Assembly: GCA_903904855.1 (NCBI GenBank)
Contig: CAIVEH010000128.1
Span: 1-34,443, forward strand
DNA from: an uncultured Bacteroidota bacterium
GTDB taxonomy: Bacteria > Bacteroidota > Bacteroidia > Chitinophagales > Chitinophagaceae
Direction: 5' to 3'
Length of the DNA stretch: 34,443 bases
In this document: positions 308 through 14,876 of the stretch, piece by piece
How positions within the stretch are numbered: the stretch's first letter is position 1
How the letters are laid out: every line of letters starts with the position of its first letter
Notes under the pieces: generated by a model
The model's database searches: none
What the model saw: only the letters and a program-made list of their open reading frames with translations
What the model was told of the DNA's origin: nothing
Made by a program: the position numbers and the translations under genes

Positions 308-351
308 ATGACCTAAATCATAAAATAGGAGCAGGCTGCCCGGTACCTTTG
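308..351 (+). promoter_or_regulatory. FNR/CRP-like site plus -7 element for norCB
   Basis: The palindrome ATGACCTAAATCAT occupies 308-321, and a perfect Bacteroidota -7 element, TACCTTTG (consensus TAnnTTTG), occupies 344-351. If transcription starts about 5 bases after the element (near 356), the palindrome is centred near -41.5, the class II activator position of CRP/FNR proteins. That would give norC a leader of about 50 bases. The same palindrome-to-element distance (36 bases start to start) recurs at four other promoters in this window. The regulator itself is not encoded here. Confidence 0.75.
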
Positions 352-406
352 AACACACCAATTTTGGCTGGCAATTGCTTCCTGTTTAAAGTTGAATTCT
401 GAGTCT

Positions 407-814
407 ATGAAGTTTCGGTTGTGGCTGATTTTATTTATAGGTTTCCTGGTTTACACATGCTTGGTTTACAGCTATTGTGACAAAAATAGTTTACCTGGCA
501 ATACCCCCGATAATCATGTTGTGGCTGGCTGGAACACATGGCAGGAGAAAAACTGCCAGAGTTGCCATCAGATATACGGATTGGGTGGGTATCTGGGCCC
601 TGATTTAACCAATGCTGCATCCGCGCCGGGTAAGGGTGAAAATTATATGAAAGTTTTTATACAGTTTGGTACCGGCAAAATGCCCAATTTTCACCTGAGC
701 GATTCAGAGACAAATAACGTTGTTGCATTTCTCAAATGGGTGGACAAAAGCGGTAAAAATACAGTACCAAAAGAAAACGTAACATGGACAGGCAATTACA
801 ACCTGGATAACTGA
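407..814 (+). CDS. norC: Nitric oxide reductase cytochrome c subunit NorC
   Basis: This is the membrane-anchored monoheme cytochrome c that passes electrons to NorB for reduction of NO to N2O at the periplasmic face. The 135-residue protein has one N-terminal membrane anchor (about residues 4-22). Its heme motif CQSCH (C50, C53, H54) is followed by the NorC-like stretch YGLGGYLGPDLTN. A GTGKMPNF segment supplies the probable axial ligand M92. A TTG codon at 392 would add five residues in frame, but ATG 407 fits the short anchor and the predicted transcript start better. The stop overlaps the norB start by one base (TGATG), indicating translational coupling. Length and architecture match c-type NOR small subunits. 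Confidence 0.92.
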   Translation: MKFRLWLILFIGFLVYTCLVYSYCDKNSLPGNTPDNHVVAGWNTWQEKNCQSCHQIYGLGGYLGPDLTNAASAPGKGENYMKVFIQFGTGKMPNFHLSDSETNNVVAFLKWVDKSGKNTVPKENVTWTGNYNLDN

Positions 815-2130
815 TGCAAAAACACCTCCGTCTATATTTTATAACTGCACTTTTACTCTTATCTGCTACAGTTCTGTTCGGAATGCTGGCATCATGGGCT
901 TTTTTATACCCTGAGACCTACAACCAATACATGCCATTTTATCAATTAAGACCTTTCCATGTATCTGCTGCATTGTTCTGGATCATTTCAGGCGCCACAA
1001 GCTGCATACTCCTGTTTAAAAAAGAATCACTTGCCGGCAGCAGTTCTGTTGTGCTTGAACAACTGTTTATCTATACCTGGATCGGAACCATAATTGCAAT
1101 ATTCGTTTGTTATGGACTCAAAAAATTCGGTGGCAGGGAATACTGGGAGTTCCCCCCTGTTCTTGGCTTACCGCTGCTGGTAAGCTGGCTCCTGCTTATG
1201 GGCGCTTATTTTATACCACTACTGAAAACCAAAGGCAATAAACCAATGTATGTGTGGATGTGGACCACCGGTATGTTCTTCTTCCTCGTTACTTTTATTG
1301 AGCAGAACCTGTGGCTTGTTCCGTGGTTCCGGCAGTCATATCTCAGGGAACTGACTATACAATGGAAGGCTAACGGAGCCACGGTTGGGGCCTGGAACCA
1401 GATGATCTATGGAACATCACTTTACCTGATGGTAAAAATCAGCGGCGATGTAACTAAAGCACAAGGCAAAACTGTTTTCTTTTTCTACATGCTGGGACTG
1501 AGCAACCTGATGTTCAACTGGGGGCACCATATTTACAACGCACCTTCGGCATCATGGATACGGGATACATCCTATATCATCAGCATGACGGAATGGCTCT
1601 TTCTTATACGAATGCTCCAGGGTTTCCGCAGCACACTGGAGGAGGGCCGGAAATTAAAACACCTGATAACTTACCGGTTTCTGATTGCTTCTGAATTTTG
1701 GGTTTTTGTTAATCTGTTGCTTACCCTTGCCATGTCGGTACCGGCTATTAACAGGTATACCCATGGCACACATATTACAGTAGCGCACTCAATGGGCGCA
1801 ACTATTGGCATTAATACAATGATTTTACTGGCAGGTTTCAGCTATATTCTGGAGATAGACCAGAAGAGTGAACGCATCCGCAAAACGATCATTGCCAATT
1901 TCTGGCTTTGCCAGGTAAGTCTTGTGGCATTCTGGATTACACTTATAGCTGCAGGTATAATAAAGGGCTACAGAACCACAGCGCTAAATCTTACCAGCTT
2001 TCAGGAAATAATGATGCCGGTAATGCCTGCTTTAAAAGCATTTTCCATTGCAGGAATAGGAGTTGTAATCAGCCTTGTGATTATCTCGGTGGTTTATATC
2101 AGACAGGCTATCCGGTTCAAAGAGGCTTAA
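814..2130 (+). CDS. norB: Nitric oxide reductase large subunit NorB, Bacteroidota-type variant
   Basis: A polytopic heme-copper-superfamily subunit of 438 residues with about 12 membrane helices, expected to receive electrons from NorC and reduce NO. Seen in the sequence: H49 in LRPFHVSAALFW (low-spin heme b region), the His pair H237-H238 in NWGHHIYN (Fe_B ligands), E259 in the helix that carries E280 in Pseudomonas NorB, and H324 in THGTHITVAHSMG (heme b3 position). Aligned by eye, several canonical residues are missing. The HxWVEGVWE helix reads NGATVGAWNQ, so the third Fe_B histidine and the catalytic-site glutamate are replaced, and the second histidine of the AHGH motif is M326. A related form seems widespread in Bacteroidota, where it is often annotated as a cbb3-type subunit I. 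The NorC partner supports an NO-related role; the catalytic mechanism is uncertain. Confidence 0.82.
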   Translation: MQKHLRLYFITALLLLSATVLFGMLASWAFLYPETYNQYMPFYQLRPFHVSAALFWIISGATSCILLFKKESLAGSSSVVLEQLFIYTWIGTIIAIFVCYGLKKFGGREYWEFPPVLGLPLLVSWLLLMGAYFIPLLKTKGNKPMYVWMWTTGMFFFLVTFIEQNLWLVPWFRQSYLRELTIQWKANGATVGAWNQMIYGTSLYLMVKISGDVTKAQGKTVFFFYMLGLSNLMFNWGHHIYNAPSASWIRDTSYIISMTEWLFLIRMLQGFRSTLEEGRKLKHLITYRFLIASEFWVFVNLLLTLAMSVPAINRYTHGTHITVAHSMGATIGINTMILLAGFSYILEIDQKSERIRKTIIANFWLCQVSLVAFWITLIAAGIIKGYRTTALNLTSFQEIMMPVMPALKAFSIAGIGVVISLVIISVVYIRQAIRFKEA

Positions 2131-2138
2131 AAACAAAA

Positions 2139-2160
2139 TTGCTTCCCCTTAGAGAAGCAA
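2139..2160 (-). terminator. Terminator between convergent norB and osmC
   Basis: TTGCTTC at 2139-2145 and GAAGCAA at 2154-2160 form a perfect 7-bp stem with an 8-base loop. Read leftward, the hairpin is followed by a T-rich tract (complement of AAAACAAAA at 2130-2138), a good intrinsic terminator for the osmC transcript. Read rightward the following sequence is less T-rich, so it may serve norB only partly. Confidence 0.6.
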
Positions 2161-2196
2161 CTACTATTTGGAAGTTACTATTATTCAGCTTTATTA

Positions 2197-2637
2197 CTAT
2201 TGTGCAATCTTAATATCAGGCTGGAAGATAATTTTCGACTTTACGGAATTAGAGATCAGACAGGCCGCTTCCGATTTATTGAGCACCTTCAGAGCCTTTT
2301 CCATATCTTCTTCCCTCAGTATAGTCAATGAAGGTACAAGCGTAATCTCGCTCATAATATACCGGCCATCTACTATCTCCAGCTTGCCATACGATTTGGA
2401 ACTGAATTTTTTAAATTCCAGTTTTGAATTCTCAGCTATTGAAAGAAAGGTAGTCATCAGGCAACTGTTGACAGCAGCGGTAAACAAATGTTCGGGCGAC
2501 CATACTTTCTCAATGCCCTTAGGAAATTGTGGTGGTGTGGCAACCTGCATTTCATCATTCAATTCGGGTGAATACAGAATCCCTATTCTGTCATGGATCC
2601 AGTTCAGATCTACCTCATAACTATGTTCTACACTCAT
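2197..2637 (-). CDS. OsmC/Ohr-family thiol peroxidase
   Basis: A 146-residue protein with the two cysteines of the OsmC/Ohr peroxiredoxin-like fold: C59 in SPEHLFTAAVNSCLMTTF and C126 in AACLISN. The family reduces organic hydroperoxides through a disulfide between these cysteines, usually with a lipoyl or thiol reductant in the cytoplasm. No signal peptide is present. The gene converges on norB and is divergent from the Rrf2 regulator. It has its own FNR-like site with a TTTG element at the fixed 36-base offset, so it probably belongs to the same NO/low-oxygen regulon. I cannot tell OsmC, Ohr and YhfA subgroups apart by eye, so no symbol is given. Confidence 0.82.
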   Translation of the reverse strand: MSVEHSYEVDLNWIHDRIGILYSPELNDEMQVATPPQFPKGIEKVWSPEHLFTAAVNSCLMTTFLSIAENSKLEFKKFSSKSYGKLEIVDGRYIMSEITLVPSLTILREEDMEKALKVLNKSEAACLISNSVKSKIIFQPDIKIAQ

Positions 2638-2733
2638 TTTGAATAATATTTAAGCATGCGAAAATGTTTGATGGTATTACTGCCCATGTGTCTATAATTT
2701 ACTATAAAGGAGCAGCCATTTCCAATCAGAGTA

Positions 2734-2777
2734 CAAAGTACTCCAACATTCAACTTATAAATAATGATCAATATCAT
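2734..2777 (-). promoter_or_regulatory. FNR/CRP-like site and -7-like element for osmC
   Basis: The palindrome ATGATCAATATCAT lies at 2764-2777. Read leftward, GTACTTTG begins exactly 36 bases downstream of the palindrome's first base (2741 to 2734). Its TTTG matches the -7 consensus and the TA half is shifted by one. Rightward use of this copy gives no -7 match, so it is assigned to osmC. Its centre is 22 bases from the neighbouring copy at 2786-2799, two helical turns away. Confidence 0.6.
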
Positions 2778-2785
2778 ACCTAAAG

Positions 2786-2829
2786 ATGACTAAGTTCATA
2801 ATCGAAGGGTAACAAATAGGGTAGTATTG
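2786..2829 (+). promoter_or_regulatory. FNR/CRP-like site and -7 element for the Rrf2 gene
   Basis: The palindrome ATGACTAAGTTCAT lies at 2786-2799 and TAGTATTG (seven of eight to TAnnTTTG, counting the free positions) at 2822-2829, the same 36-base offset as at norC. Leftward use of this copy gives no acceptable -7 element. The predicted start near 2834 leaves a long leader of about 170 bases before the Rrf2 ATG. Confidence 0.65.
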
Positions 2830-2854
2830 CAATGTGAAACTATATATAAGAGCC

Positions 2855-2878
2855 TAAAAAGACAAGGCAGTCTTTTTA
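2855..2878 (+). promoter_or_regulatory. Perfect hairpin or operator in the Rrf2 leader
   Basis: TAAAAAGAC at 2855-2863 is the exact reverse complement of GTCTTTTTA at 2870-2878, separated by AAGGCA. It lies just downstream of the predicted transcription start, within the 368-base gap between osmC and the Rrf2 ATG. It could be an operator for Rrf2 autoregulation or a weak attenuator. A second, shorter inverted repeat follows (GCCGG 2906-2910 with CCGGC 2924-2928), and the leader also holds two tiny open frames at 2901-2975 and 2972-3001, overlapping as ATGA. Confidence 0.5.
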
Positions 2879-3005
2879 ACTCTCATAGAATAGTAAAAAA
2901 ATGAAGCCGGATTTTACAAATACCCGGCCCAGTATTGGAAAGTATCAAGGCTCAAACAAAAAATTGCCGGCATGAAGAATTTTGGTTACCATAAAATTTA
3001 ATTAT

Positions 3006-3458
3006 ATGTTTTCAAAAACTTGCGAGTATGGCATCAGGGCAGTGATTTATATTTCTGCTACAGGAACTGCTGAAAATAAAATAGGAATTGCAGACATCAG
3101 CGCCAATATTGAGGCGCCGGTACATTTTACTGCCAAGATATTGCAACCACTGGTTCATGCTGATATTATCAGTTCGAAAAAGGGAGTGAACGGCGGATTC
3201 TATATGTATCCGAAACAGAAATTGAGAACGCTGATAGAGGTAGTGCGCGCTATTGACGGAGATGTGTTATTTTCGGGCTGTGGAATGGGCCTGAAAACAT
3301 GCTCTGATGAAGAGCCCTGCCCAATGCACGATAAGTTTAAAGCCATCAGAAACAGTCTTAAAACCATGATGGAACAGACTTCCGTTGAAGACATGGCAGT
3401 TATGTTGAAAAACGGAAGAACATTTATAAGAAAAGAAGAATTACAGGCACATGAATAA
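3006..3458 (+). CDS. Rrf2-family (IscR/NsrR-like) Fe-S transcriptional regulator
   Basis: A 150-residue Rrf2 protein beginning MFSKTCEYGIRA, the usual family start. A TTG at 2982 would extend it by eight atypical residues, so ATG 3006 is preferred. The N-terminal winged helix is followed by the wing segment KKGVNGGFYMYP. Three cysteines, C92, C99 and C105, plus H108 in CPMH are spaced almost like the cluster ligands of IscR (three Cys and one His) and the three Cys of NsrR, so an NO- or iron-sensitive cluster is likely. The gene overlaps the next one by 8 bases and sits in an NO-detoxification context. An NsrR-like NO sensor is therefore the favoured role, but IscR-like sensing cannot be excluded. 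Confidence 0.85.
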   Translation: MFSKTCEYGIRAVIYISATGTAENKIGIADISANIEAPVHFTAKILQPLVHADIISSKKGVNGGFYMYPKQKLRTLIEVVRAIDGDVLFSGCGMGLKTCSDEEPCPMHDKFKAIRNSLKTMMEQTSVEDMAVMLKNGRTFIRKEELQAHE

Positions 3459-4680
3459 AAGCAAACAATTATGGACCACAATTGCTTTAATTAATCTTTG
3501 CATAGTTGCCTTGCTTGGTGTTACACTGAGAAGTAAGATACTTTTCCCGTTACATGGAATTGAGTTTAACAATATTCTTCATGCCCATTCCCATTTTGCA
3601 TTTGCCGGATGGATTACCCTGTCGTTGATTACCCTTATGGTGTTTGAAATACTGCCGGAGGATTTCAACCGAAAAAAAAGTTACAAAAATTATCTTGCAG
3701 GAATCCTGCTTACATCCGCAGGTATGCTGGTAACCTTTCTTTACCAGGGTTATGGGCTGTATTCCAATATCTGCAATATCCTCTTTATTATGGCTACTTA
3801 CGGTTTCAGCTTTGTATTTATAAAAGACATACTGAAGACGAATACCGACAAAGCGGTAAAGACTTTAAGTATATCGGCCCTTGCCTGTCTTGTATTGTCT
3901 TCAGGAGGACCCTTTACACTGGCCGGAATGATGGCTACCCATTCGCACGACAACCTCCTGTATAAAGACACGGTATATACCTACCTGCACTTCCAGTATA
4001 ATGGTTTTTTTACACTTACTGTTTTTGCATTATTACTGAACGCCCTGTATAAAAATTTCACAGAACATCAATTGATCAAGGTGCGGATTTTTGCCAACCT
4101 GGTAAGCATTTCTATCATCCCTACTTTGTTTATTTCTTATCTGTGGCATTATACCAATCCACTAGTTTATACTGTTGCAGGTATCGGCATATTTTTGATC
4201 ATTACTTCTATTGTTTACTTCTTTATTGCACTCCGGTCCATCAAGGACCATCGTTTTACGATATTGCCATTCATCAGGCATATTGGGGTACTGTCCATTA
4301 TCGCCTTCCTGCTTAAATCACTGCTACAGACAGGCACCATTATCCCCTCTCTTGGCAAACTGGTGTATGGCGACCGGGCCATTATCATTGGCTACCTGCA
4401 CCTGGTATTGCTGGGATTTGTTACCTTGTACATCCTTGCCAATTTCATGTATTCAGGTATCCTCGATGCTACATCAAGGTTTACCCGTTATTCTGTAAGG
4501 GTATTTGCAGGAGCCATTATTACCAATGAAGTAGTACTGATGACTCAGGGCTTTGGTAATATGCTCATGGTCAGTTACAGCATTTATACCTGGCTGCTTT
4601 GGGGTGTTGCCATTTGGCTGTTTACAGGAGCAGTAATGGTATTTATTTCGAGGATGAAAAGCCGATCTGCTGCGGCATGA
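3451..4680 (+). CDS. Histidine-rich polytopic membrane protein, NorB/NnrS-like (heme-copper-related)
   Basis: A 409-residue protein with about 12 hydrophobic segments. Clustered histidines lie at or near membrane helices: H44, H46 and H48 in LHAHSHFAFAGW, H164 and H166 in THSHD, H180 in YLHFQYNGFF, H233 and H317 in YLHLVLLGF. The first motif resembles the AHGHLAFYG heme-ligand helix of NorB, and the overall layout recalls NnrS, a membrane heme protein of NO metabolism, but the NnrS motif WHAHEMLFGF is not matched. It overlaps the Rrf2 gene by 8 bases, so the two are almost certainly co-expressed. A role in NO stress is inferred from context; the enzyme activity, if any, is unknown. Confidence 0.65.
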   Translation: MNKSKQLWTTIALINLCIVALLGVTLRSKILFPLHGIEFNNILHAHSHFAFAGWITLSLITLMVFEILPEDFNRKKSYKNYLAGILLTSAGMLVTFLYQGYGLYSNICNILFIMATYGFSFVFIKDILKTNTDKAVKTLSISALACLVLSSGGPFTLAGMMATHSHDNLLYKDTVYTYLHFQYNGFFTLTVFALLLNALYKNFTEHQLIKVRIFANLVSISIIPTLFISYLWHYTNPLVYTVAGIGIFLIITSIVYFFIALRSIKDHRFTILPFIRHIGVLSIIAFLLKSLLQTGTIIPSLGKLVYGDRAIIIGYLHLVLLGFVTLYILANFMYSGILDATSRFTRYSVRVFAGAIITNEVVLMTQGFGNMLMVSYSIYTWLLWGVAIWLFTGAVMVFISRMKSRSAAA

Positions 4681-4715
4681 TATGCAAAATTAATACCGGG
4701 TTGTTCAGAAAATCA

Positions 4716-5024
4716 CTACTTATTGCCTTCAAATAATAAAACACCCACCCGGTTGATGTGCTCCTTTAGCTCTTGATTTGAAATCTGGTGGTATATGGCT
4801 ATGTCAAAAAGGTAAGGAAGGTTTAGATCATAAAGTTTTTGTGATATTTCATTCAGTAAAGTCAGGTTAAGCCTTTCCCCAGCCAGGCAGATATCAATAT
4901 CAGATCCTTCCCTGAAATTACCTTTTGCCCTTGAGCCATATAATATCACTTTCTTTACTTCAGGAAATGATGCAAATACCGAGGTAATTCTATTTACATC
5001 CACTGCATCAAGGCCATACATCAT
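4716..5024 (-). CDS. MNT-type nucleotidyltransferase (antitoxin of a MNT/HEPN pair)
   Basis: A 102-residue minimal nucleotidyltransferase of the polymerase-beta superfamily. It shows the nucleotide-binding motif GSRAKG (30-35), the metal-binding pair D42/D44 in SDID, and a probable third acidic residue, D74, in LFDIAIY. In characterised MntA/HepT pairs the nucleotidyltransferase adds AMP groups to a tyrosine of the HEPN toxin and so inactivates it. The gene follows the HEPN gene with a 4-base ATGA overlap. All key residues are intact. It converges with the upstream membrane-protein gene, with about 35 bases between the stops. Confidence 0.85.
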   Translation of the reverse strand: MMYGLDAVDVNRITSVFASFPEVKKVILYGSRAKGNFREGSDIDICLAGERLNLTLLNEISQKLYDLNLPYLFDIAIYHQISNQELKEHINRVGVLLFEGNK

Positions 5025-5422: not shown

Positions 5423-5503
5423 ATGATTACCAGACTCCTGAGAGTTTAGGCTAAAATACGATAATTTTTAACAAGGCTGCTTTATATTGATTTTGCATCT
5501 CAA

Positions 5504-5968: not shown

Positions 5969-6139
5969 AATCCTTTTATCTTTTTTGCTTTACTTAGTAA
6001 AATCAATTGGCAGTTCAATATATAAAATTCCCGTCGGAAATAAAAACCTTATTATCCTAACCAAAATTTTCAACAAGTCTAACTGCACAAAACAAATATA
6101 ATTATACTCTTTTGGCTATGCCGTTAATCAGTTTTAAAC

Positions 6140-6183
6140 ATGATTAAGGTCATTTATGATATTTTGATTTGTGATGATATTTG
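6140..6183 (+). promoter_or_regulatory. FNR/CRP-like site and -7 element for proline dehydrogenase
   Basis: The palindrome ATGATTAAGGTCAT is at 6140-6153. Its reverse complement, ATGACCTTAATCAT, differs from the norC site by one base. GATATTTG at 6176-6183 is a one-mismatch TAnnTTTG at the same 36-base offset as at norC, and it predicts a leader of about 50 bases. In the leftward direction no -7 element occurs at that spacing, so the site is assigned to the proline dehydrogenase gene rather than to the divergent cytochrome. Confidence 0.7.
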
Positions 6184-6237
6184 CACTGCTTATTTTGGAT
6201 AAGCATCATTGTTCCATTCTGAAAAAAATACAATTTT

Positions 6238-7401
6238 ATGCCCCAGTTCAATAATACAGATATTGCCTTCCGCTACCGTTCAGATAAAGATTTAAAACTG
6301 GCCCATTTTTTGTTCAAATCTATGAATTCGCCTGCCATCACAAAAATGGGTATTGCAGCAACACGGTTTGCTATAAGTACTCACCTGCCCATTCACGGAC
6401 TGGTGAAACGGACCATCTTTAAGCAGTTTTGCGGAGGTGAAAATATGGCAGAGGCAGGCCAGACTGCCGATAACATTGGCAAATACAATGTAGGGGTGAT
6501 ACTGGATTATGGTGTAGAAGGCAAAGAGAATGAAGAAGAATTCGACAAAGCAACACAAGAATTTGTAAAGGCTATAAAGTTTGCGGCATCAAAGAAAAAC
6601 ATTCCGTTTGTGAGCCTTAAAGTAACCGGGTTTGCAAGGTTTGCCCTGATGGAAAAAATCAATAACGGCGAACAACTCACTGACACAGAAAAACAGGAGT
6701 GGCAAAGAGTACATAAACGGATAGATACCGTATGCACAGCTGCTTTCGAAAATAAAATAATGATGCTCATTGATGCTGAAGAAACATGGATCGTAGAACC
6801 GGTAAATGAACTCTGCGAGCGGATGATGGAGAAATTCAATAAGCAGAAAGCATACATTTTCAATACCTACCAGCTATATTGTCATGGCACCCTGCCCTAC
6901 CTTAAAGAAGCTACTGAGAAAGCTGCGGGATTAGGGTATATACTTGGCGCCAAACTTGTCCGTGGCGCCTATATGGAAAAAGAAAGAGCCCGGGCCGCAG
7001 AAAAGGGTTATCCCGACCCTATACAGCCCAACAAGCAAAGTACAGACAATGATTATGATACCGCTGTAACTTACTGCCTTCAGAACCTGGATAAACTGGC
7101 CCTTTTCATTGGTACCCACAACGAAAAAAGCTGCCAGGATGCGGTTAATTATATGCAGGCAAATGCAATTAAACCGAACCACCCCAACGTTTTCTTTTCA
7201 CAGCTATATGGCATGGGCGATAACCTTTCATTTAATCTTGCTGATGACAGGTATAATGTATCCAAATACCTGCCTTATGGCCCCGTAATGGATGTGGTAC
7301 CCTACCTGATGCGCCGTGCAGAAGAGAATACTTCGGTAGCCGGTCAAACGAGCAGGGAATTATCGCTGATTACTGCAGAAATGAGGAGAAGGCGTATTTA
7401 A
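6238..7401 (+). CDS. Proline dehydrogenase (FAD-dependent)
   Basis: A monofunctional proline dehydrogenase of 387 residues. It oxidises L-proline to pyrroline-5-carboxylate and passes electrons through FAD to the quinone pool. Family motifs visible in order: VSLKVTG (125-131), DAE (179-181), KLVRGAYMEKER (239-250), the THN segment (293-295), YGMGD (324-328) and LPYGPVMDVVPYLMRRAEEN (345-364), where the paired arginines bind the proline carboxylate. No P5C dehydrogenase domain or gene is present nearby, unlike the fused PutA. It stands alone behind an FNR-like promoter. This suggests that proline serves as an electron source under the same conditions in which NO reduction is induced; that link is an inference. 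Confidence 0.92.
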   Translation: MPQFNNTDIAFRYRSDKDLKLAHFLFKSMNSPAITKMGIAATRFAISTHLPIHGLVKRTIFKQFCGGENMAEAGQTADNIGKYNVGVILDYGVEGKENEEEFDKATQEFVKAIKFAASKKNIPFVSLKVTGFARFALMEKINNGEQLTDTEKQEWQRVHKRIDTVCTAAFENKIMMLIDAEETWIVEPVNELCERMMEKFNKQKAYIFNTYQLYCHGTLPYLKEATEKAAGLGYILGAKLVRGAYMEKERARAAEKGYPDPIQPNKQSTDNDYDTAVTYCLQNLDKLALFIGTHNEKSCQDAVNYMQANAIKPNHPNVFFSQLYGMGDNLSFNLADDRYNVSKYLPYGPVMDVVPYLMRRAEENTSVAGQTSRELSLITAEMRRRRI

Positions 7402-7473
7402 TTAACTGTTTGGAATAATGCCAGAATCTCAAAAGATAATATAAACTTGATCAAGGCAAACAATATGCAGGCA

Positions 7474-7481: not shown

Positions 7482-7572
7482 CCGGCAGGGTTATTTACTC
7501 TGATTGCCCTCATTCAAAGAACAAAGATTAACTTCATAAAAGATTAAGTCATTCATTTCAAAAAATCTTCCA

Positions 7573-10299
7573 ATGAGCCAGCCTGCCAACCTCAAAGAAG
7601 AAGTGAAAAATAAATTCCCTTTTTACAAAGGCAATAAAGGAGGTTTCGACAGTGAGGCTCTGATGAAAATACGGAAAGCTGCAGGCAGTGATCCGGACAC
7701 ATGTTATTCCCTTCTTGATAGCAGCAGCAATGGCCTCACTGCTGACCAGGTAGCTCAGAAACAAACTCAGTTCGGGCTTAATGAAATAGGCCACGAAAAG
7801 GCGCCTGCATGGTATATACAACTGATGATGTCATTCATCTTTCCCTTTAATGCGGTGTTGGTAACAATTGCCATTGTCTCTTACTTAACCGATGTGGTGT
7901 TTGCCAGCCCGGCCGACAGAGACTATAAAACCATTATCCTGCTTACTTTAATGATATTGCTCAGTTCACTGATCAGGTTCTGGCAGGAATTCAGAAGCAA
8001 TAAAGCAGCCGAGACCCTGAAAGGGATGATTAAAACCACGGCTACAGTCATCAGGCAGGCAGGGCTCAGAGTAACAGAAAAAAAGGAAACAGACATTAAA
8101 CAATTAGTGCCCGGCGACATTGTTTCACTTTCAGCCGGCGACATGATACCTGCCGATTGCAGGGTTATGCAGTCGAAAGATTTATTCATCAGTCAGTCTA
8201 TGCTCACCGGAGAATCACTGCCGGTAGAAAAGAGGGGAATAGCCATTCCAGACAACGAGAAAATATCAGCTCTTGAGCTGGAGAACATTTGCTACATGGG
8301 TACCAATGTAGCCAGCGGAACTGCCCATGCCCTCGTTGTCTCCACCGGCAACCAGACCTATTTTGGATCACTGAGTAAGGCTATTGCCAACAAGACAGTG
8401 GAAACCAGCTTCGATAAAGGAGTGAAAAGTGTAAGCTACCTGCTCATACGCTTTATGCTGGTGATGGTGCCACTTGTATTTATTATTAATGGCCTAACCA
8501 AGGGCAACTGGCTCGAAGCTTTATTGTTTGCCATTTCAGTAGCTGTAGGGCTTACCCCCGAAATGCTGCCTATGATTGTTACCACCAACCTGGCCAAGGG
8601 TGCGGTAAATATGAGCAAGCAGAAGGTAATAGTGAAGCGCCTTAATGCCATCCAGAACATTGGCGCAATGGATGTCCTCTGCACCGATAAAACAGGTACG
8701 CTTACCATGGATAAAATTGTGCTCACCGAGCACCTGAATGTGGAAGGCGACCATGATGATGAAGTTTTAAAGTGGGCCTACCTGAACAGCTATCACCAGT
8801 CGGGACTGAAAAACCTCCTGGATGTGGCTGTATTGGAGCATAGCGAACTGCATGATTTAATTAAGGTAGAAGATGATTATAAAAAACTCGATGAAATACC
8901 TTTCGATTTCCAGCGAAGGAGGATGAGTGTGATACTCCACATGAAAAACGGCAAGCACCTGTTAATATGTAAAGGCGCGGTAGAAGAAATGCTGGGGGTA
9001 TGCAGCTTTGCTTTTGATCCTGGAGAGGATAAGCAACTGCACATAGAGAGCGATAAAATAATGCCTATGGATGATACTGTTGTAAAGACTGTATTGAACA
9101 CATCCAAACGCCTTAATGAAAGCGGGCTGAGAGTATTGCTGGTAGGCATTAAGGAGTTTGACGAGCGACCGCTCAATTACTCTGTTGCCGATGAAAAAGA
9201 CCTGGTACTTACCGGCTTTATTGGCTTCCTTGACCCTGCTAAACCTTCAGCCAAGCCATCTATTGAATCGCTGCAGCGACTGGGCATTTCTTTAAAAATA
9301 CTTACCGGGGATAATGAAATCGTTACCCGTAAAATCTGCAAGGATGTAGGCATTACAGTAAATAACATAGTGCTTGGCAACGACCTCGATAATATCAGCG
9401 ATGAAGAACTCACAAAGAGAATTGATGACATCAATGTGTTTGCAAAATTAAGCCCATTCCAGAAGAGCCGTATCATAAAGGTGCTGCAGGCCAAGGGCCA
9501 TACCGTTGGGTTTATGGGCGATGGTATCAATGATGCTGCCGCACTGCGCGAATCGGATGTAGGTATCTCGGTAGATACTGCTGTGGATATTGCCAAAGAA
9601 AGCGCCGACATTATCCTGCTCGAAAAAGATTTAATGGTGCTCTACAAAGGAGTTATTTACGGCAGGCGCACCTTCGGCAATATCATCAAGTACATAAAAA
9701 TGGCCGCCAGCAGCAACTTCGGCAATATGTTCAGTATGCTGGGCGCAAGTGCATTGCTGCCCTTCCTGCCCATGCTGCCTATCCAGATACTGCTGCAAAA
9801 CCTGCTTTATGACTTTTCACAAATCTCCATACCATGGGACACCATGGACCGCGATTACCTTGCCCTCCCCCGCAAGTGGGACTCAGGAGGCATCGGCAAG
9901 TTCATGCTGTTTATAGGCCCCATCAGTTCCATATTCGATTATGTCACCTTCGCAGTTATGTTCTTTGTGTTTAAGGCAAATTCCCCGGCGCATCAGGCAT
10001 TGTTTCAGTCAGGCTGGTTTATAGAGGGGTTGCTGTCTCAAACCTTAATAGTGCACATGATCCGAACCCGCAAGATACCCTTCATCCAGAGTTGGGCGGC
10101 AACGCCCGTAGTGGCGCTTACATCAGCCATAATGGCCATAGCCATATTTATACCGTTTTCCTCCTTTGCATCCGTATTTAAAATGCAGCCATTACCACTT
10201 GCTTTCTTCCCTATATTACTGGCCATACTGGTAGGCTATTGCCTTTTGACCCAAATGGTAAAAACCTGGTTCATTAAAAAATACCAGCTATGGCTATAG
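7573..10299 (+). CDS. mgtA: Magnesium-transporting P-type ATPase, MgtA type
   Basis: A 908-residue P3B-type ATPase for Mg2+ uptake across the inner membrane. In order: cation-ATPase N-terminal domain (about 50-75), actuator motif TGES (212-215), AVGLTPEMLPMI membrane helix 4 (about 324-335), phosphorylation site DKTGTLT with D372, nucleotide-binding region with MSVILHM, hinge GDGIND (649-654), and the six-helix C-terminal membrane region. PEMLP in place of the PEGLP/PEGL of Ca or Na/K pumps, and the TAVDIAKESADIILLEKDLMVL segment, are typical of MgtA. Length matches the family. It is the first gene of a probable two-gene unit with the tiny membrane protein that overlaps its stop codon. Confidence 0.93.
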   Translation: MSQPANLKEEVKNKFPFYKGNKGGFDSEALMKIRKAAGSDPDTCYSLLDSSSNGLTADQVAQKQTQFGLNEIGHEKAPAWYIQLMMSFIFPFNAVLVTIAIVSYLTDVVFASPADRDYKTIILLTLMILLSSLIRFWQEFRSNKAAETLKGMIKTTATVIRQAGLRVTEKKETDIKQLVPGDIVSLSAGDMIPADCRVMQSKDLFISQSMLTGESLPVEKRGIAIPDNEKISALELENICYMGTNVASGTAHALVVSTGNQTYFGSLSKAIANKTVETSFDKGVKSVSYLLIRFMLVMVPLVFIINGLTKGNWLEALLFAISVAVGLTPEMLPMIVTTNLAKGAVNMSKQKVIVKRLNAIQNIGAMDVLCTDKTGTLTMDKIVLTEHLNVEGDHDDEVLKWAYLNSYHQSGLKNLLDVAVLEHSELHDLIKVEDDYKKLDEIPFDFQRRRMSVILHMKNGKHLLICKGAVEEMLGVCSFAFDPGEDKQLHIESDKIMPMDDTVVKTVLNTSKRLNESGLRVLLVGIKEFDERPLNYSVADEKDLVLTGFIGFLDPAKPSAKPSIESLQRLGISLKILTGDNEIVTRKICKDVGITVNNIVLGNDLDNISDEELTKRIDDINVFAKLSPFQKSRIIKVLQAKGHTVGFMGDGINDAAALRESDVGISVDTAVDIAKESADIILLEKDLMVLYKGVIYGRRTFGNIIKYIKMAASSNFGNMFSMLGASALLPFLPMLPIQILLQNLLYDFSQISIPWDTMDRDYLALPRKWDSGGIGKFMLFIGPISSIFDYVTFAVMFFVFKANSPAHQALFQSGWFIEGLLSQTLIVHMIRTRKIPFIQSWAATPVVALTSAIMAIAIFIPFSSFASVFKMQPLPLAFFPILLAILVGYCLLTQMVKTWFIKKYQLWL

Positions 10300-10391
10300 A
10301 AACCAAAAAGGCAAGATGGCTGCTGATAATACTGTTAACGGCCATTCTACTATTGGTGATTGATTGGATTATCAAATGCTTATTTCATTAA
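10290..10391 (+). CDS. 33-residue single-pass membrane peptide overlapping mgtA
   Basis: ATG at 10290 lies inside the last codons of mgtA in the +1 frame. The frame runs 33 codons to TAA at 10389-10391, so the genes overlap by 10 bases. The peptide starts MAIETKKAR, a positively charged head, followed by a hydrophobic helix of about 19 residues (W10 to I28) and a short tail ending in KCLFH. One aspartate, D25, lies near the far end of the helix beside W26. Size, charge layout and position recall small P-type-ATPase partners such as KdpF, MgtR and MgtS, but the sequence is not recognisably homologous to any of them. The coding status rests on position and composition only. Confidence 0.5.
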   Translation: MAIETKKARWLLIILLTAILLLVIDWIIKCLFH

Positions 10392-10566
10392 AGCAGGGTT
10401 ACCATACTAATCTTCAGGTTGCATGAAGTTGTGCATTATCATCGTTGATGGCTTTGTAGTCTTAATTTTCGATATGCTTATTTTCGGTATTTCATACTTT
10501 TATCGGATAAGGGATGCTTATATTTGAACAATAAACTTTGTGCCCTTTCCTTTCTATTCTTATGAA

Positions 10567-10610
10567 TTAGTGCACTTTGTGGTTAACCTTAGTGCACCTT
10601 GTGGTTAAAA
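10567..10610. repeat. Two tandem 22-base GTGCACYTTGTGGTTAA units
   Basis: Two adjacent copies (10567-10588 and 10589-10610) differ at only three positions. Similar TTTGTGGTTAA-type tandem units recur in intergenic regions of many Bacteroidota genomes. Here they lie downstream of the mgtA unit and just beyond the 3' end of the leftward kinase gene. The rest of 10392-10649 shows no gene. Confidence 0.7.
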
Positions 10611-10649
10611 TAATCTACACTATTTTATTGCACAATTTCAGAAGACGAA

Positions 10650-12023
10650 TCAGGCCGCTTTATGCTCTTTTACCGGCTGTGGGAATAACAATGTAAACTC
10701 AGTACCTGCACCTTCTGTACTGGTACATTTAATTTTACCATTCATCACCTTTGTGTACTTCTCAGCAATATACAATCCCAGGCCGGTGCCTTCAATATTC
10801 TGTGCATTGGTGGCTCTGTGAAACCGGTCGAAAAGATTGGCCTGTTCCTGTTTAGGGATACCGATACCCTGGTCTTTTACAGCTATCATCAAACCATCAA
10901 AATGGTTGTAAGACCGTATATGTATCGGATCATTTTCTTTCGAAAACTTTATTGCATTCGACACCAGGTTATTCAAGATATGCCTCAGTAAGGCGTGGTC
11001 AAGCATAACTTTCGGATTACCTTTGTGTTCATATACAAGCTGTTGGCCGTTTTTCAGCAGGGGTTCAATCTGCTTTATCAGAGCGTTCACATAATCTTCG
11101 ATATTAAATTCCTCCTGGTTGGCTTTAAGTTTGCCTATTTCCAGTTTCTCTATAGAGAGCAGGTCTTCCAGAATTTCATTTAGATGATGCACCGCAGTAG
11201 CTATGCGGTTAAAATGTTTTTCGCGTTTTGGCTGGTCATCTTCTGTTACATATTTGGAGGCCAGCTGGCTCGATGCAAGTATGGTTGATAACGGGGTCCG
11301 GAACTCATGTGAAGCCATAGATACAAATCTGGCCTTCATTTCATTTATAAGCTTCTCCCTGATTATTATTTTCTGCAGGTCGGCTTCTGCTTTTTTTCGT
11401 TTTTTTAATTCAAGGATTACAAGCCCTATAAGCGCAACAATAAAAATCTGTATAATGATGCTGCCCAGAGGCGAAGCCCATGAAAGCTTCATTAAAGTCT
11501 GTTCATTTTCTATTCTGCCCTTTTCCAGGTTTACCTTTGCAATTGCAGCAATGCTTTCGGTGAGCTGGTTTATTTCCTGTATTTTCTTTTGTTCATCCAG
11601 CGATATGGCTGCAATTTCTTTACTGTCATACTTTGTTCCGTCGGATCTTAATTGGCTCCAGAAAAAGATCAGGTCATTTATCTGCCCGTTTAATGCGCCA
11701 ACTTTTGCATTAAGCAAAGGATCAGGAGATACCAGGCGGTAAGTTTCCTGCATTGTAACACTGATTCTATCCTTTACTTTGTAATATTGGTCCCTGTAAA
11801 GTGGCTCATTTGTAGATCGGAGTACCCGCTGATTGCTGGCCATATCAGAGAGTAGGTAATGAATCTGATTGATATCGTTCATTACATCAAAAATATGGCT
11901 CAGACTACGGCTGTTCTTTTCATGCATATTAACCGCATAATAAGTGCTACAGCCTATAAATGCCGACAAAACAAATAATGCGCCAAAGCCTGCATACAAC
12001 CGAATCTTAACAGGGATCTTCAC
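10650..12023 (-). CDS. Orphan sensor histidine kinase with CHASE3-like input
   Basis: A 457-residue membrane kinase. TM1 (about 8-30) and TM2 (about 185-205) bracket a helical periplasmic region of the CHASE3 or four-helix-bundle type. A short coiled segment leads to HisKA with the phospho-acceptor H239 in SHEFRTPLS. The ATPase domain has the N box (NNLVSNAIKFS, 351-361), G1 DQGIGIP (384-390), F box FDRFHR and G2 GTGLGLYIAEKY (412 onward). All catalytic motifs are intact. No response regulator is encoded next to it, so its partner must lie elsewhere. It lies downstream of the cytochrome/porin genes on the same strand, separated from the last cytochrome by about 184 bases. Confidence 0.9.
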   Translation of the reverse strand: MKIPVKIRLYAGFGALFVLSAFIGCSTYYAVNMHEKNSRSLSHIFDVMNDINQIHYLLSDMASNQRVLRSTNEPLYRDQYYKVKDRISVTMQETYRLVSPDPLLNAKVGALNGQINDLIFFWSQLRSDGTKYDSKEIAAISLDEQKKIQEINQLTESIAAIAKVNLEKGRIENEQTLMKLSWASPLGSIIIQIFIVALIGLVILELKKRKKAEADLQKIIIREKLINEMKARFVSMASHEFRTPLSTILASSQLASKYVTEDDQPKREKHFNRIATAVHHLNEILEDLLSIEKLEIGKLKANQEEFNIEDYVNALIKQIEPLLKNGQQLVYEHKGNPKVMLDHALLRHILNNLVSNAIKFSKENDPIHIRSYNHFDGLMIAVKDQGIGIPKQEQANLFDRFHRATNAQNIEGTGLGLYIAEKYTKVMNGKIKCTSTEGAGTEFTLLFPQPVKEHKAA

Positions 12024-12207
12024 AATCAGTATTTAATAATCAAATATCATTATCTGAAAATTTGCTTGCAAAACTACAGGTTTTGTTTCAGGCTGTGGTT
12101 ACCTGAGGGAAATAATATCCCATAATAAAATCGTGGTCAACAAATATAATTCACCATATAAATCAGGCAATGGTATTAATGCTTTACTTCGTCAAAACAG
12201 ATCAGCG

Positions 12208-12699
12208 TTATTTTACGCCATCATTATTGCGCATAAATTCAAGCAGGCTTCTTGCATCATCATCACTCACATGTTGATTGGGCATCCTCACAATACACTT
12301 TTCAAGCAATGCCTGCACCGAAGGGTCCTTATCAATCATCTCATCAGTATTAGTGATGAAGTTCATGATCCATTCAGGCTTTCTCCTTTCTGTAACTCCT
12401 TTCCATCCGGGGCCTACCAGTTTTTCTTCGGTTAGTTTATGACAGGCGCCACATTTTACCGCATATTGTGCCTTGCCACCTGCAACCATTTTCTGATCAA
12501 GCGGATTTGTCAAAGCTACATTGGTAAATTTTCCCTTACCCTTCGAATCATCTGTTTTTACAGCAACCCCGGAGTTGTCTCCCGGCTCTTTCAGGGTAGC
12601 TTTTGTAGGCACATAAGCATCCTTGGGAGCTTCAGGGCCGCAACTGCCTAAAATAACCAGGCCCAGCAGAGATAATGAAATCAGTTGTTTTACTTTCAT
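12208..12699 (-). CDS. Monoheme cytochrome c lipoprotein (paralogue 2)
   Basis: A 163-residue lipoprotein: lipobox VILGSC (C20), linker rich in Lys, Thr, Gly and Asp to about residue 60, then a cytochrome c domain with CGACH at 83-87 and probable Met ligand M139 in VRMPNQH. The conserved block KLVGPGWKGVTERRKPEWIM is nearly the same as in the lipoprotein at 5504-5968, so the two are paralogues about 6.7 kb apart. It is probably an electron carrier to a periplasmic reductase. It follows another cytochrome gene by about 100 bases that contain a strong inverted repeat, so it may be partly uncoupled from the upstream genes. Confidence 0.85.
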   Translation of the reverse strand: MKVKQLISLSLLGLVILGSCGPEAPKDAYVPTKATLKEPGDNSGVAVKTDDSKGKGKFTNVALTNPLDQKMVAGGKAQYAVKCGACHKLTEEKLVGPGWKGVTERRKPEWIMNFITNTDEMIDKDPSVQALLEKCIVRMPNQHVSDDDARSLLEFMRNNDGVK

Positions 12700-12735
12700 T
12701 GCTTTACTTTTTAGGAATTGACTTTTTCAGCTTAA

Positions 12736-12770
12736 AGATACAGGCATGGTTGATATCCATACCTGTATCT
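12736..12770. repeat. 14-bp inverted repeat between two cytochrome genes
   Basis: The arm at 12736-12749 pairs with 12757-12770 with one mismatch across the loop TTGATAT. It lies between the cytochrome gene ending at 12799 and the one starting at 12699, both leftward. No T-run follows in either direction, so it is not a standard terminator. An RNA processing or stability element, or an operator for the downstream gene, are alternatives. Confidence 0.6.
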
Positions 12771-12798
12771 GAATATAAATGTTTAACAGGCCAGAAAA

Positions 12799-13086
12799 TC
12801 AGAGGTGGTTGAATGACTGAAGGAAATCAACTATTTTGTCTCTTTCATTGTCTGTAAGCAATGCTCTTGTTTGCATGTGCATACCTACCGTTTTCCAATG
12901 TTCATCATTGAATGTTTTAGGAGCCGGAGTATTGTGGCAGCGCTGGCAGTTTTCGGACCAGAGCTGAGCGCCGCTTTTATCGGCAATTTTTTTACTCTCC
13001 TTGCAACCGGTAACTGATCCTGCGCCGGCAATAACTGTGCAGATAAGTGTCAGTGCAATAATATCTTTTACGCTTGGCATCTTCAT
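12799..13086 (-). CDS. Small monoheme cytochrome c lipoprotein
   Basis: A 95-residue protein with a lipoprotein signal (SVTGC, C28) and a compact cytochrome c domain. The heme motif is CQRCH (47-51), and M69 or M71 in HWKTVGMHMQTR could be the axial ligand. The C-terminal helix DKIVDFLQSF is the usual last helix of class I cytochromes. It follows the barrel gene by 11 bases and is clearly in the same operon. It probably handles electrons in the periplasm; its specific partner cannot be told from sequence. Confidence 0.82.
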   Translation of the reverse strand: MKMPSVKDIIALTLICTVIAGAGSVTGCKESKKIADKSGAQLWSENCQRCHNTPAPKTFNDEHWKTVGMHMQTRALLTDNERDKIVDFLQSFNHL

Positions 13087-13097
13087 AAAATCAGTTT

Positions 13098-14324
13098 TTA
13101 GAATTCGGTTGAAAATTGAATAATAAGATTATTAGTGGTTGCTGAACCTGTTGATGCACCAAAGGAATAGCCATCAGACTTAATATTTTCATAACCCAGT
13201 TTCAGAACTGTCCTCCAGCTAAGCCAGTAATCAAGGCATACATCCATTTCATTATAACTCTGACCGAAACCTGAATTTTTTGGCGCTGTATAATCTACAT
13301 AACGCATGGCAAGTTCCAGATTCTTGAGGATCTTATTATTCGATTTGGATGGCCTTAAGGACAACTGACCGAATAAAGTACTGGTAGTATTGGTAAAAGT
13401 ATATTGAGCTAAAGCTGTTGAATCAAAATATTTCTCGTCGCTGACCATCGTTGCGCTGTATTGAGCCTTAATATTAATCTGTACCGGGTTAACGTTATGT
13501 ACAAAATTCAGATCAGCAGCCATCATAGATACACTTGGCCCTTTGGTATCTGTTGCGTTTATATTGGTAAAGCTTGCCCCTGCAGGTTTGGCCATACTGC
13601 CATACAAATAAGAAAACCCTAACTCCAGGCTCGAATTTGATAATGGTAGTAATGCCAGTCGGCCGCAAAATGTTTTGCCATCATTATTGGTAATACCAGG
13701 GTTGAGTCCGATACCCAGGTTACCGATGGTTCCGTCATTGTTTAATTGGTAACCGTTTGTCAGACTCACATCATAACTCCATTTCATATTTCCTAAAGGA
13801 AGGCCACCCTCCACTTCAATTCCGAAGTCTGAACCAGCCATATCTACGCCCATAGGGTCAGAAGTCAGTTTATTGATCCAACCCGCAGCAAGCCGCTTGG
13901 TATAAGTACCAAATGGCAATACCAGGTATCCTCCTTTAATAATCAATCCGGGTTTTACAAAATAAGCTACATCAGCCCAGTTTACGCCCAGTTGATAACC
14001 ATTCCACGATGGTTCAAATTCTGCGAGCAATTTATCACCATGCCTCCACAGAAACATAGGGCTGAATTCGTATCTGTCAGCATCACCAATACTGTTTTGT
14101 TTAGTGGACACACCACCAAATGTCTGTTTTTGGTTTATCCAGCCGAATGTTACAAGCCCTACCATCATAAAATCGCTTTCGGCAGGCAGCATTGTAGTTA
14201 CCGCCTGGTTTACATTCTGATCATTTATCGGATTGCCCGGCTTAGACAAATCCTGGGCATAGCTATTATTCGTGAGCAACAGAATAGCTATAAAAACTAA
14301 CCGCGTTATTTTTTGAAGATTCAT
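13098..14324 (-). CDS. Outer-membrane beta-barrel (porin-like) protein
   Basis: A 408-residue protein with an N-terminal signal peptide cleaved after about NNSYA. The rest consists of alternating amphipathic strands and Gly/Asn/Ser-rich turns, and it ends ...NLIIQFSTEF with a terminal aromatic residue, the usual beta-barrel C-terminal signature. Segments such as FLWRHGDKLLAEFEPSW and KPGLIIKGGYLVLPFG resemble porin-type barrels of the OprO/P class. It lies between two cytochrome c genes (11 bases before the next gene, about 50 after the previous), so it is co-expressed with them. It could be a general porin used under anaerobic growth or a partner of the envelope cytochromes; sequence alone does not decide. 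Confidence 0.75.
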   Translation of the reverse strand: MNLQKITRLVFIAILLLTNNSYAQDLSKPGNPINDQNVNQAVTTMLPAESDFMMVGLVTFGWINQKQTFGGVSTKQNSIGDADRYEFSPMFLWRHGDKLLAEFEPSWNGYQLGVNWADVAYFVKPGLIIKGGYLVLPFGTYTKRLAAGWINKLTSDPMGVDMAGSDFGIEVEGGLPLGNMKWSYDVSLTNGYQLNNDGTIGNLGIGLNPGITNNDGKTFCGRLALLPLSNSSLELGFSYLYGSMAKPAGASFTNINATDTKGPSVSMMAADLNFVHNVNPVQINIKAQYSATMVSDEKYFDSTALAQYTFTNTTSTLFGQLSLRPSKSNNKILKNLELAMRYVDYTAPKNSGFGQSYNEMDVCLDYWLSWRTVLKLGYENIKSDGYSFGASTGSATTNNLIIQFSTEF

Positions 14325-14373
14325 AAAATGGTTATTTAGTTTGATTAATAAAAAAAGTGGAACAACTTTAAGA

Positions 14374-14808
14374 TTACTTCTTTAAAGTGCGAATGTAGTT
14401 AACGAGGCTCCAGCGCTGGGCATCTGTTAGTTTGGTTTTAAAAGACTGCATCGGGCCCCTACCTGTGGTCATTTTATAAAATAATGAACCATCTGTTTCG
14501 GCCTGAATGGCTTTAGACGAGTGGTCGGCTGGTTTTGGATTCAAAGCGGCTGCTGCAGGTCCATCACCTTTACCTTTTTCACCATGGCATGGAGCACACA
14601 TAGATACATACAGTTTTTTGGCATCGGCTAATACCTCTTTGTTGCCATCCAAAGGATTTTTCTGCGCGATGGCTTCAGCGGGAGCTACCCATTTTACATA
14701 TTTCTGAGCGCTGGTTACCGGACTGATAAATACTGCTCCACCAAGCAATGTACAGCTTAATACGAGCTTCAAAAACTTTCCTTTAAAACTAACTGCTGGT
14801 TGATTCAT
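14374..14808 (-). CDS. Periplasmic monoheme cytochrome c (first gene of the cytochrome/porin operon)
   Basis: A 144-residue secreted cytochrome with a signal peptide to about S33-A34-Q35, a heme motif CAPCH (71-75) within MCAPCHGEKGKGDGPAA, and a Met ligand M120 in GRGPMQSF. The domain ends with WSLVNYIRTL, the typical final helix of class I cytochrome c. An upstream ATG at 14847 would add 13 residues but lies upstream of the predicted transcription start near 14828, so ATG 14808 is chosen. It heads a leftward run of cytochrome, barrel and two lipoprotein cytochromes and has an FNR-like site in front. Its fold resembles the soluble cytochromes that feed periplasmic reductases. Confidence 0.87.
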   Translation of the reverse strand: MNQPAVSFKGKFLKLVLSCTLLGGAVFISPVTSAQKYVKWVAPAEAIAQKNPLDGNKEVLADAKKLYVSMCAPCHGEKGKGDGPAAAALNPKPADHSSKAIQAETDGSLFYKMTTGRGPMQSFKTKLTDAQRWSLVNYIRTLKK

Positions 14809-14832
14809 ATAAAAAATTGTTTTGGTTGTTAT

Positions 14833-14876
14833 CAAAAGTGAGTACAATTTACGGACAAAATCATGACTTTTATCAT
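14833..14876 (-). promoter_or_regulatory. FNR/CRP-like site and -7 element for the cytochrome/porin operon
   Basis: The palindrome ATGACTTTTATCAT lies at 14863-14876. Leftward, CACTTTTG (one mismatch to TAnnTTTG) occupies 14840-14833, again 36 bases from the start of the palindrome. The predicted transcript begins near 14828, about 20 bases before ATG 14808. Confidence 0.7.

Follow-up and report, generated by a model that had tools for sequence, protein, structure and literature searches.

Class II activation by FNR is well known. In Escherichia coli, FNR acts at the class II position on the site TTGAT-N4-ATCAA and has cysteines arranged as C-x2-C-x5-C. The regulators DNR and NnrR are not known to carry N-terminal iron-sulphur cysteines, and in the FixL-FixJ-FixK system the receiver and CRP parts are found in separate proteins. 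Promoters of the Bacteroidota sigma factor consist of a -33 TTTG box and a -7 TAnnTTTG element. Here we describe a palindrome, ATGA-N6-TCAT, that precedes elements resembling this -7 sequence at a fixed distance in a 34,443-nucleotide stretch from an uncultured member of the Chitinophagaceae (assembly GCA_903904855.1, contig CAIVEH010000128.1, here contig C128), referred to below as the window. Five promoters in the window appear to belong to a wider low-oxygen respiration gene set, whose activator is probably an FNR-like protein that senses oxygen.

Excerpts of published work describe several related regulators. In Alphaproteobacteria the core targets of FnrL/FixK are the cbb3 oxidase, the oxygen-independent coproporphyrinogen oxidase and the regulator's own gene; the sites of FNR, FixK and DNR are indistinguishable, and the regulator gene often adjoins cbb3 genes (PMC2908626). 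HcpR2 of Bacteroides and Porphyromonas has the site GTAACnnnnGTTAC and a predicted regulon that in most Bacteroides comprises hcp only (PMC1274295). Carbon sensing is predicted for MalR-like CRP/FNR proteins of Flavobacteriales and Saprospiraceae, and the excerpt consulted reports no evidence that CRP/FNR proteins control denitrification in these organisms (PMC8510549). PgRsp is a further protein described in Bacteroidota (PMC6955866). An FNR regulon with a promoter geometry was not found for Bacteroidota in the open-access literature searched, which was available in part.

A palindrome and a -7 element at fixed spacing

The window contains six copies of ATGA-N6-TCAT where 0.83 are expected on average, a number reached in 0 of 100 dinucleotide shuffles. 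The original prediction had described five of these, with exact coordinates, and had placed the palindrome always between genes; this holds for five of the six, the sixth lying within a magnesium P-type ATPase gene (7573-10299). Each of the five is followed, in the direction of its gene, by an element that begins exactly 36 bases past the palindrome start (offset 36), again at the coordinates first given. The features are as follows.

308-321, plus strand: activator site of norCB, predicted class II, ATGACCTAAATCAT (palindrome search; conserved in the related genomes G046 and G049)
344-351, plus strand: -7 element of norCB, TACCTTTG, offset 36 (offset scan)
2764-2777, minus strand: activator site of osmC, predicted class II, 22 bp from the Rrf2 site (palindrome search, offset scan)
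2734-2741, minus strand: -7 element of osmC, GTACTTTG, offset 36 (offset scan)
2786-2799, plus strand: activator site of the Rrf2 operon, predicted class II (palindrome search, offset scan)
2822-2829, plus strand: -7 element of the Rrf2 operon, TAGTATTG, offset 36 (TAGTATTG and TAATATTG in two syntenic genomes)
6140-6153, plus strand: activator site of proline dehydrogenase, predicted class II (palindrome search, offset scan)
6176-6183, plus strand: -7 element of proline dehydrogenase, GATATTTG, offset 36 (offset scan)
14863-14876, minus strand: activator site of the cytochrome/porin operon, predicted class II (palindrome search, offset scan)
14833-14840, minus strand: -7 element of the cytochrome/porin operon, CACTTTTG, offset 36 (offset scan)
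7825-7838, no strand: sixth palindrome, within the P-type ATPase gene and outside the set (palindrome search and gene annotation)

Of the 80 offsets tested in the gene direction (10-89), only 36 has TTG at every one of the five sites; when the five flanks were shuffled 20,000 times by mononucleotide, no offset reached 5/5 (0/20,000). The opposite direction does fail, as had been claimed: TTG is found there in 0/5 sites at offset 36 and in three at the best offset (58). The sequence itself had been drawn too tightly in places. The likeness of the elements to TAnnTTTG holds for TTG in 5/5, with the exact TAnnTTTG in only 1/5; ATGACYTWWATCAT is literally common to three members, its middle bases not being conserved in the wider set described below; and within the palindrome the TGA-N6-TCA core stands, with the following T mostly kept, whereas the A before TGA is too strict.

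The source genome comprises 5.6 Mb in 271 contigs. The palindrome alone is only mildly enriched in it, with 211 occurrences against 132 of a reversed control pattern. Palindromes with TTTG within a range of offsets number 60, of which 16 have the matching offset, counting both strands of one palindrome on contig C8, and no other offset has more than 7. The Rrf2 promoter is not among the 16 because matches were defined by TTTG and its element is TAGTATTG. The original prediction had held that the motif with its spacing should not be equally common inside genes, and genome-wide it is not: 1/16 offset-36 matches lies within an open reading frame of at least 150 amino acids, against 25/44 matches at other offsets (Fisher p = 0.0004). 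With the limit lowered to at least 90 amino acids the counts are 3/16 and 29/44. The sole match inside a longer frame falls in a tryptophanase-like, over-long open reading frame whose listed start is inside the palindrome.

The same spacing recurs in the genus, for which 35 genomes were compared. The pattern ATGAY-N4-RTCAT-N22-TAnnTTTG occurs 96 times in 28/35 genomes and its reversed form once. Among the 140 matches of relatives listed, in which not all relatives are represented, TAnnTTTG lies at offset 36 in 38, at 35 in 14, at 37 in 9, at 48 in 9 and at 26 in 8, with fewer at other offsets, some of the matches away from 36 stemming from repeated sequence in one genome. When the outer bases are left free, TGA-N6-TCA has 88 sites at offset 36 in 1.03 Mb of loci, and no other offset from 22 to 49 exceeds 3. 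For the most part these loci were chosen because they hold respiratory or regulator genes, and many of their promoters are orthologous; the 88 therefore describe the sharpness of the peak and not a genome-wide rate. In these 88 sites TCA is followed by T in 76, and TGA is preceded by T in 32, A in 31, C in 20 and G in 5. A -33 box was sought in the spacer of the 96 genus sites, and at no position does TTG exceed 6/96, as would be expected if an activator replaces the -33 box.

The neighbourhood of the window is kept in two genomes (G046, contig C85; G049, contig C40), which allowed the comparison of related promoters that had been proposed as a check. Over 12 comparisons, covering the five window promoters and that of hemN, 92/96 bases of the palindrome core and 70/72 of the -7 element are identical, against 137/264 in the spacer. 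Even atypical -7 letters are mostly kept: GTACTTTG is found at osmC in 3/3 genomes, TAGTATTG or TAATATTG at Rrf2 and GATATTTG or AATATTTG at proline dehydrogenase, while at the cytochrome operon one syntenic genome keeps CACTTTTG and the other has TATTTTTG.

The spacing is observed; if transcription starts 4-6 bases after the element, as we assume, the dyad would be centred near -41.5. The starts of the osmC and Rrf2 palindromes are separated by 22 bases, the distance also of the paired sites found there in G046 and G049; each palindrome would thus be centred at about -41.5 relative to the promoter that it serves and at about -63.5 relative to the divergent one. Among the matches listed for the genus there are 131 palindrome pairs after removal of opposite-strand duplicates (a few overlapping rows remain, in G046:C78, G047:C135 and G048:C258), and 57 of these are exactly 22 bases apart, the next most frequent distance having 7. 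A second site 22 bases upstream also recurs in promoters of fnrA, a regulator gene described below, and, with two mismatches allowed, at the 28 ccoNO promoters with a site. The distance would correspond to two helical turns. This tandem pairing rule is a refinement of the original prediction, in which it had not been seen.

Target genes and candidate regulators

Elsewhere in the source genome offset-36 sites precede hemN (contig C58), a glycine dehydrogenase gene (C4) and an FNR-type gene (C75). A site on C124 stands before a small gene followed by pyruvate:ferredoxin oxidoreductase; on C8 a 2-oxoacid:ferredoxin oxidoreductase lies about 580 bases downstream of the site and is a less certain target. 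Further sites precede multihaem cytochrome-like and NHL-repeat proteins (C74, C50) and a tryptophanase-like enzyme (C74). Upstream regions across the genus were scored by a standard rule, which allowed at most one mismatch to ATGAYNNNNRTCAT and required at least 4/6 of the -7 letters at offset 36, strand-corrected. By this rule the hemN promoter has an offset-36 site in 21/23 loci, a truncated hemN of G003 (L160) being excluded from the count. The ccoNO promoter has a site in 28/30 loci when two mismatches are allowed (30 of 33 matched loci scanned), with TTGA as the proximal half-site, and the source genome's own ccoNO has such a two-mismatch site. By eye, palindromes at other spacings (G000:C249:41277, C41:12756, C26:29513 and C231:8589) precede genes like those of a succinate dehydrogenase membrane subunit, fumarase, an iron-centre repair protein and nuoA; some of these may be repressor sites or shifted sites.

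The source genome has ten matches to Crp-type helix-turn-helix domains. One belongs to a 238-amino-acid protein on contig C75, here FnrA, which matches PF13545 and PF00027. The four cysteines taken as the criterion for FNR (C6, C9, C14 and C107) are invariant in 11/11 sequences of FnrA and its relative FnrB, the spacing being C-x2-C-x4-C, and C107 of FnrA is aligned with the SMVC of PDB FNR chains. The best PDB matches of an FnrA/FnrB profile are chains named FNR type regulator (9qlt, 1.4e-27; 5cvr/5e44, 2.5e-27). The best NCBIfam model for FnrA is Fnr, but with 68 bits against a cut-off of 228. The recognition helix EQVSR, an ExxSR pattern, is found in 7/7 FnrA orthologues, and four FnrB proteins have QQV(A/T)x without the E..SR pattern. 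The nearest named relatives of FnrA and FnrB all come from metagenome-assembled genomes (30/30 loci). An offset-36 site stands in the fnrA promoter of all seven genomes, with one mismatch allowed in 6/7 and two in the remaining one. An additional CRP protein with an N-terminal CxxCxxC is present in G018 and G021, so the set of site readers may be larger.

A second candidate regulator lies beside cbb3 oxidase genes. In 9/9 sufficiently covered cbb3 clusters from genomes without FnrA (L208-L213, L216, L218 and L219), the cco genes are followed by a PAS kinase and an open reading frame of 351-380 amino acids of receiver-CRP (REC-CRP) type; the CRP part was recognised by its helix pattern in 5/9, the other four frames by their receiver start and three of these also by a CRP match at that place. 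The pair in L208 occupies 11782-14561. Both fusions scanned, from L208 and from C107 of the source genome, combine Response_reg, cNMP_binding and HTH_Crp_2 in one protein (2/2), and the source genome has three genes of this type. The kinase's first PAS domain matches FixL (E 1e-12); in the alignment the histidine that we take to be the haem ligand of FixL is kept, and the arginine after GIG, to which we presume a role in FixL, is replaced by methionine. Among the nine kinase and REC-CRP operons, a palindrome directly upstream is accompanied by an offset-36 element in five and stands alone in one, and for three none is listed. The fusion looks like FixJ and FixK in one protein, and it probably reads the sites at ccoNO and hemN. 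A 127-amino-acid protein (MKKVNISHVNNEHNRWLR...) is also encoded near ccoNO in seven clusters (L210, 3658-4041; L211, L212, L214, L215, L216 and L218); an offset-36 site stands before its gene in six of the seven, and the one copy scanned has no Pfam match.

Competing explanations and a model

We consider it likely that the five promoters of the window are of the class II activator type and belong to one CRP/FNR-type regulon, whose regulator is most likely FnrA. Control by an FNR/CRP-family protein, as originally proposed, is supported by the spacing, by the low-oxygen targets and by a four-cysteine FNR-type regulator in the genome. The sites, their spacing and conservation, the targets, the cysteines and the co-occurrence of FnrA with the sites are all observed in the sequence. 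FnrA is present in 7/35 genomes of the genus, not counting a 33% FnrB-like match in G044; these seven hold 57 of the 96 sites and the 28 others 39 (Mann-Whitney p = 2e-5, a statistic that ignores phylogeny, which weakens it). Sites with exact spacing precede norB in 4/7 genomes with FnrA and in 0/9 without it, although 8/9 of the latter norB genes are only 37-39% identical and may not be orthologues, and the ninth comes from a genome (G023) that is 78% complete, where FnrA is perhaps merely unassembled. For proline dehydrogenase, scanned at 30 of 40 matched loci, the counts are 4/7 and 0/23, the G023 gene having a perfect palindrome at offset 37. These limits lower our confidence slightly.

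Further observations weigh against this reading. Among the genomes with FnrA, norB has no offset-36 site in G003, G048 and G008 (best offset 35 in G008), nor has proline dehydrogenase in G003 (best 37), G047 and G048. In the source genome a same-strand gene start lies within 400 bases of 10/16 offset-36 matches against 18/44 others, as counted by a crude open reading frame picker that misses known cases such as osmC. Only 13/28 of the wider FnrA/FnrB-like loci have any upstream site under a loose rule, the partial loci L253 and L255 being excluded, and self-control of FnrA thus looks patchy outside the genus. Other CRP-family proteins of this genome also carry the ExxSR helix. The REC-CRP genes do not stand beside ccoNO in the source genome, and in G046 and G008, too, the kinase and REC-CRP pair lies elsewhere. 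The motif does not identify FnrA: hemN sites are kept in 15/17 loci from genomes without FnrA, and ccoNO sites also persist there, so at least two regulators must use the site, and FnrA as the sole regulator was rejected. A comparison of motif profiles between genomes with and without FnrA gave no clean separation of two regulators.

This persistence suggests that the window sites, too, might be read mainly by the PAS kinase and REC-CRP pair, with the signal coming through the kinase and not directly from oxygen at an iron-sulphur cluster. The regular position of the pair behind the cco genes and the three REC-CRP genes of the source genome speak for this. CRP frames of REC-CRP size (352-403 amino acids) are present in 18/22 relatives without FnrA, yet exact-spacing norB and proline dehydrogenase sites are not seen there, and the fnrA promoter itself carries a site; reading mainly by this pair is accordingly unlikely in our view. 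It is more doubtful still that the reader is another CRP/FNR protein, either FnrB (C74) or one of the shorter CRP proteins on C98, C106, C204 and C26. The genome offers several such candidates: FnrB has the four cysteines and a one-mismatch offset-36 site upstream, and several of the shorter proteins carry ExxSR helices. The recognition helix of FnrB, however, is QQVAI, and at the short CRP genes (loci L068-L071), where exact palindromes only were considered, none is listed with an offset-36 element.

One of the sites is followed by an Rrf2 gene, and the palindrome could in principle be read by that NsrR/IscR-like protein or by another repressor. The fixed -7 spacing and the absent -33 box fit an activator, and the NsrR motif gATGyAT-(N5)-ATrCATc, as described in the excerpt consulted, does not fit the palindrome (PMC1274295); we rejected Rrf2 as the reader on motif and position and give this explanation very little weight. 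Chance in AT-rich intergenic DNA has practically none. The palindrome is simple and a perfect TAnnTTTG is rare among the five elements, but the offset-36 peak in window, genome and genus, the intergenic bias and the conserved footprint contradict chance, and it was rejected.

With FnrA as the favoured regulator, the promoters would work as follows. TGA-N6-TCA(T) would be centred about 41.5 bases upstream of the start of transcription, and a CRP/FNR dimer bound to it would substitute for the missing -33 box and help the Bacteroidota sigma factor to use TAnnTTTG, or a variant, as a -7 element at a fixed distance. In the source genome this dimer would most likely be FnrA, which with its four iron-sulphur cysteines would be active at low oxygen and would control its own gene. 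The receiver-CRP fusion, paired with the FixL-like PAS kinase, would probably read sites of this kind at ccoNO and hemN, and a neighbouring site 22 bp away would place a second dimer at about -63.5. Binding, activation, oxygen sensing, the transcription starts and the protein acting at each promoter are what we infer here from sequence.

More tentatively, with a chance that we put somewhat short of even, this Bacteroidota lineage may have built its own Fix/FNR network, in which an iron-sulphur FNR and a kinase-driven receiver-CRP fusion share one site with strict class II -7 geometry. To a genus core (ccoNO, hemN and partly the kinase and REC-CRP operon) FnrA would have added denitrification genes and anaerobic genes, and the 22-bp pairs would serve divergent promoters symmetrically at -41.5 and -63.5.

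If the regulon is as modelled, TGA-N6-TCA(T), 22 bases and TAnnTTTG would form a precise rule for reading low-oxygen control in a Bacteroidota genus. The geometry of the activator would then be adapted to promoters of another type than those of E. coli, and the growth of a regulon around a fixed core could be followed in a natural comparison of genomes that have FnrA with genomes that do not.

Genes of the window and comparison with described systems

The genes behind the five promoters were assigned as follows.

392-814, plus strand: NorC-like cytochrome c, start likely the ATG at 407 (Pfam Cytochrome_CBB3, Cytochrom_C)
814-2130, plus strand: NorB-like nitric oxide reductase subunit (Pfam COX1; PDB NorB 4xyd, E 1.8e-8)
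2197-2637, minus strand: OsmC-family protein (Pfam OsmC)
2982-3458, plus strand: Rrf2-family regulator, start likely the ATG at 3006 (Pfam Rrf2)
3451-4680, plus strand: membrane protein of 409 amino acids, overlapping the Rrf2 gene (no match in Pfam, NCBIfam, PDB or PHROGs)
6238-7401, plus strand: proline dehydrogenase (Pfam Pro_dh, 1.2e-74)
14374-14847, minus strand: cytochrome c, start likely the ATG at 14808 (Pfam Cytochrom_C)
13098-14324, minus strand: the "porin" of the original prediction, in the same gene run as the cytochrome c (no Pfam match; signal-like N-terminus by eye)
12799-13086, minus strand: small cytochrome c-like gene of the cytochrome/porin run (weak NCBIfam cytochrome matches)
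12208-12699, minus strand: cytochrome c gene of the cytochrome/porin run (Pfam Cytochrom_C)

The later ATG at 14808 is likely for the cytochrome c because the listed start of its open reading frame lies upstream of the predicted transcription start. Proteins similar to the 409-amino-acid membrane protein are seen by eye at the same place in G046 and G049. A hemerythrin-like gene lies between the Rrf2 promoter and the Rrf2 gene in G046 (L220, 10613-11101), and none is present in the window (2800-2980). A sensor histidine kinase is encoded at 10650-12023, between the P-type ATPase gene and the cytochrome operon. Two large glycine-rich repeat proteins, secreted-looking by eye, are encoded on the minus strand at 23320-26202 and 31459-34119.

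One of the closest described systems is FNR of Escherichia coli and Aliivibrio, with which FnrA shares the CRP/FNR fold, three N-terminal cysteines and one central cysteine, and the ExxSR helix. The TGA-N6-TCA dyad, seen in the 88 offset-36 sites and predicted to be bound by FnrA, and the class II position are likewise those of E. coli FNR. The differences lie in the cysteine spacing (C-x2-C-x4-C in FnrA, C-x2-C-x5-C in E. coli), in the outermost bases, which are not fixed here as in TTGAT-N4-ATCAA, and in the Bacteroidota -7 element that takes the place of a -10 box. FnrA is unlike DNR and NnrR in having N-terminal cysteines.

The alphaproteobacterial FnrL/FixK regulons, as far as the excerpt consulted describes them, resemble this one in their core targets (cbb3 oxidase, coproporphyrinogen oxidase and the regulator itself) and in a regulator near the cbb3 genes. 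They belong to another phylum and differ in promoter element and extended targets; the 22-bp tandem pairs and the receiver-CRP fusion set the present system apart. The PAS kinase, with its FixL-like first PAS domain, kept histidine and likely output at cbb3 genes, recalls FixL-FixJ-FixK, from which the system differs in joining receiver and CRP in one protein and in the replacement of the FixL arginine by methionine.

Within the phylum, HcpR2 is also a CRP/FNR-type regulator, and its published site, in the excerpt consulted, differs from the palindrome described here. The MalR-like CRP/FNR proteins share phylum and superfamily with FnrA and differ in their predicted carbon sensing. The logic of the regulon is that of FNR and already known. 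Judged by the open-access literature searched, it departs from the known form in its promoter element, in an outer base that is only loosely fixed, in the pairing of sites at 22 bp and in the fusion of receiver and CRP.

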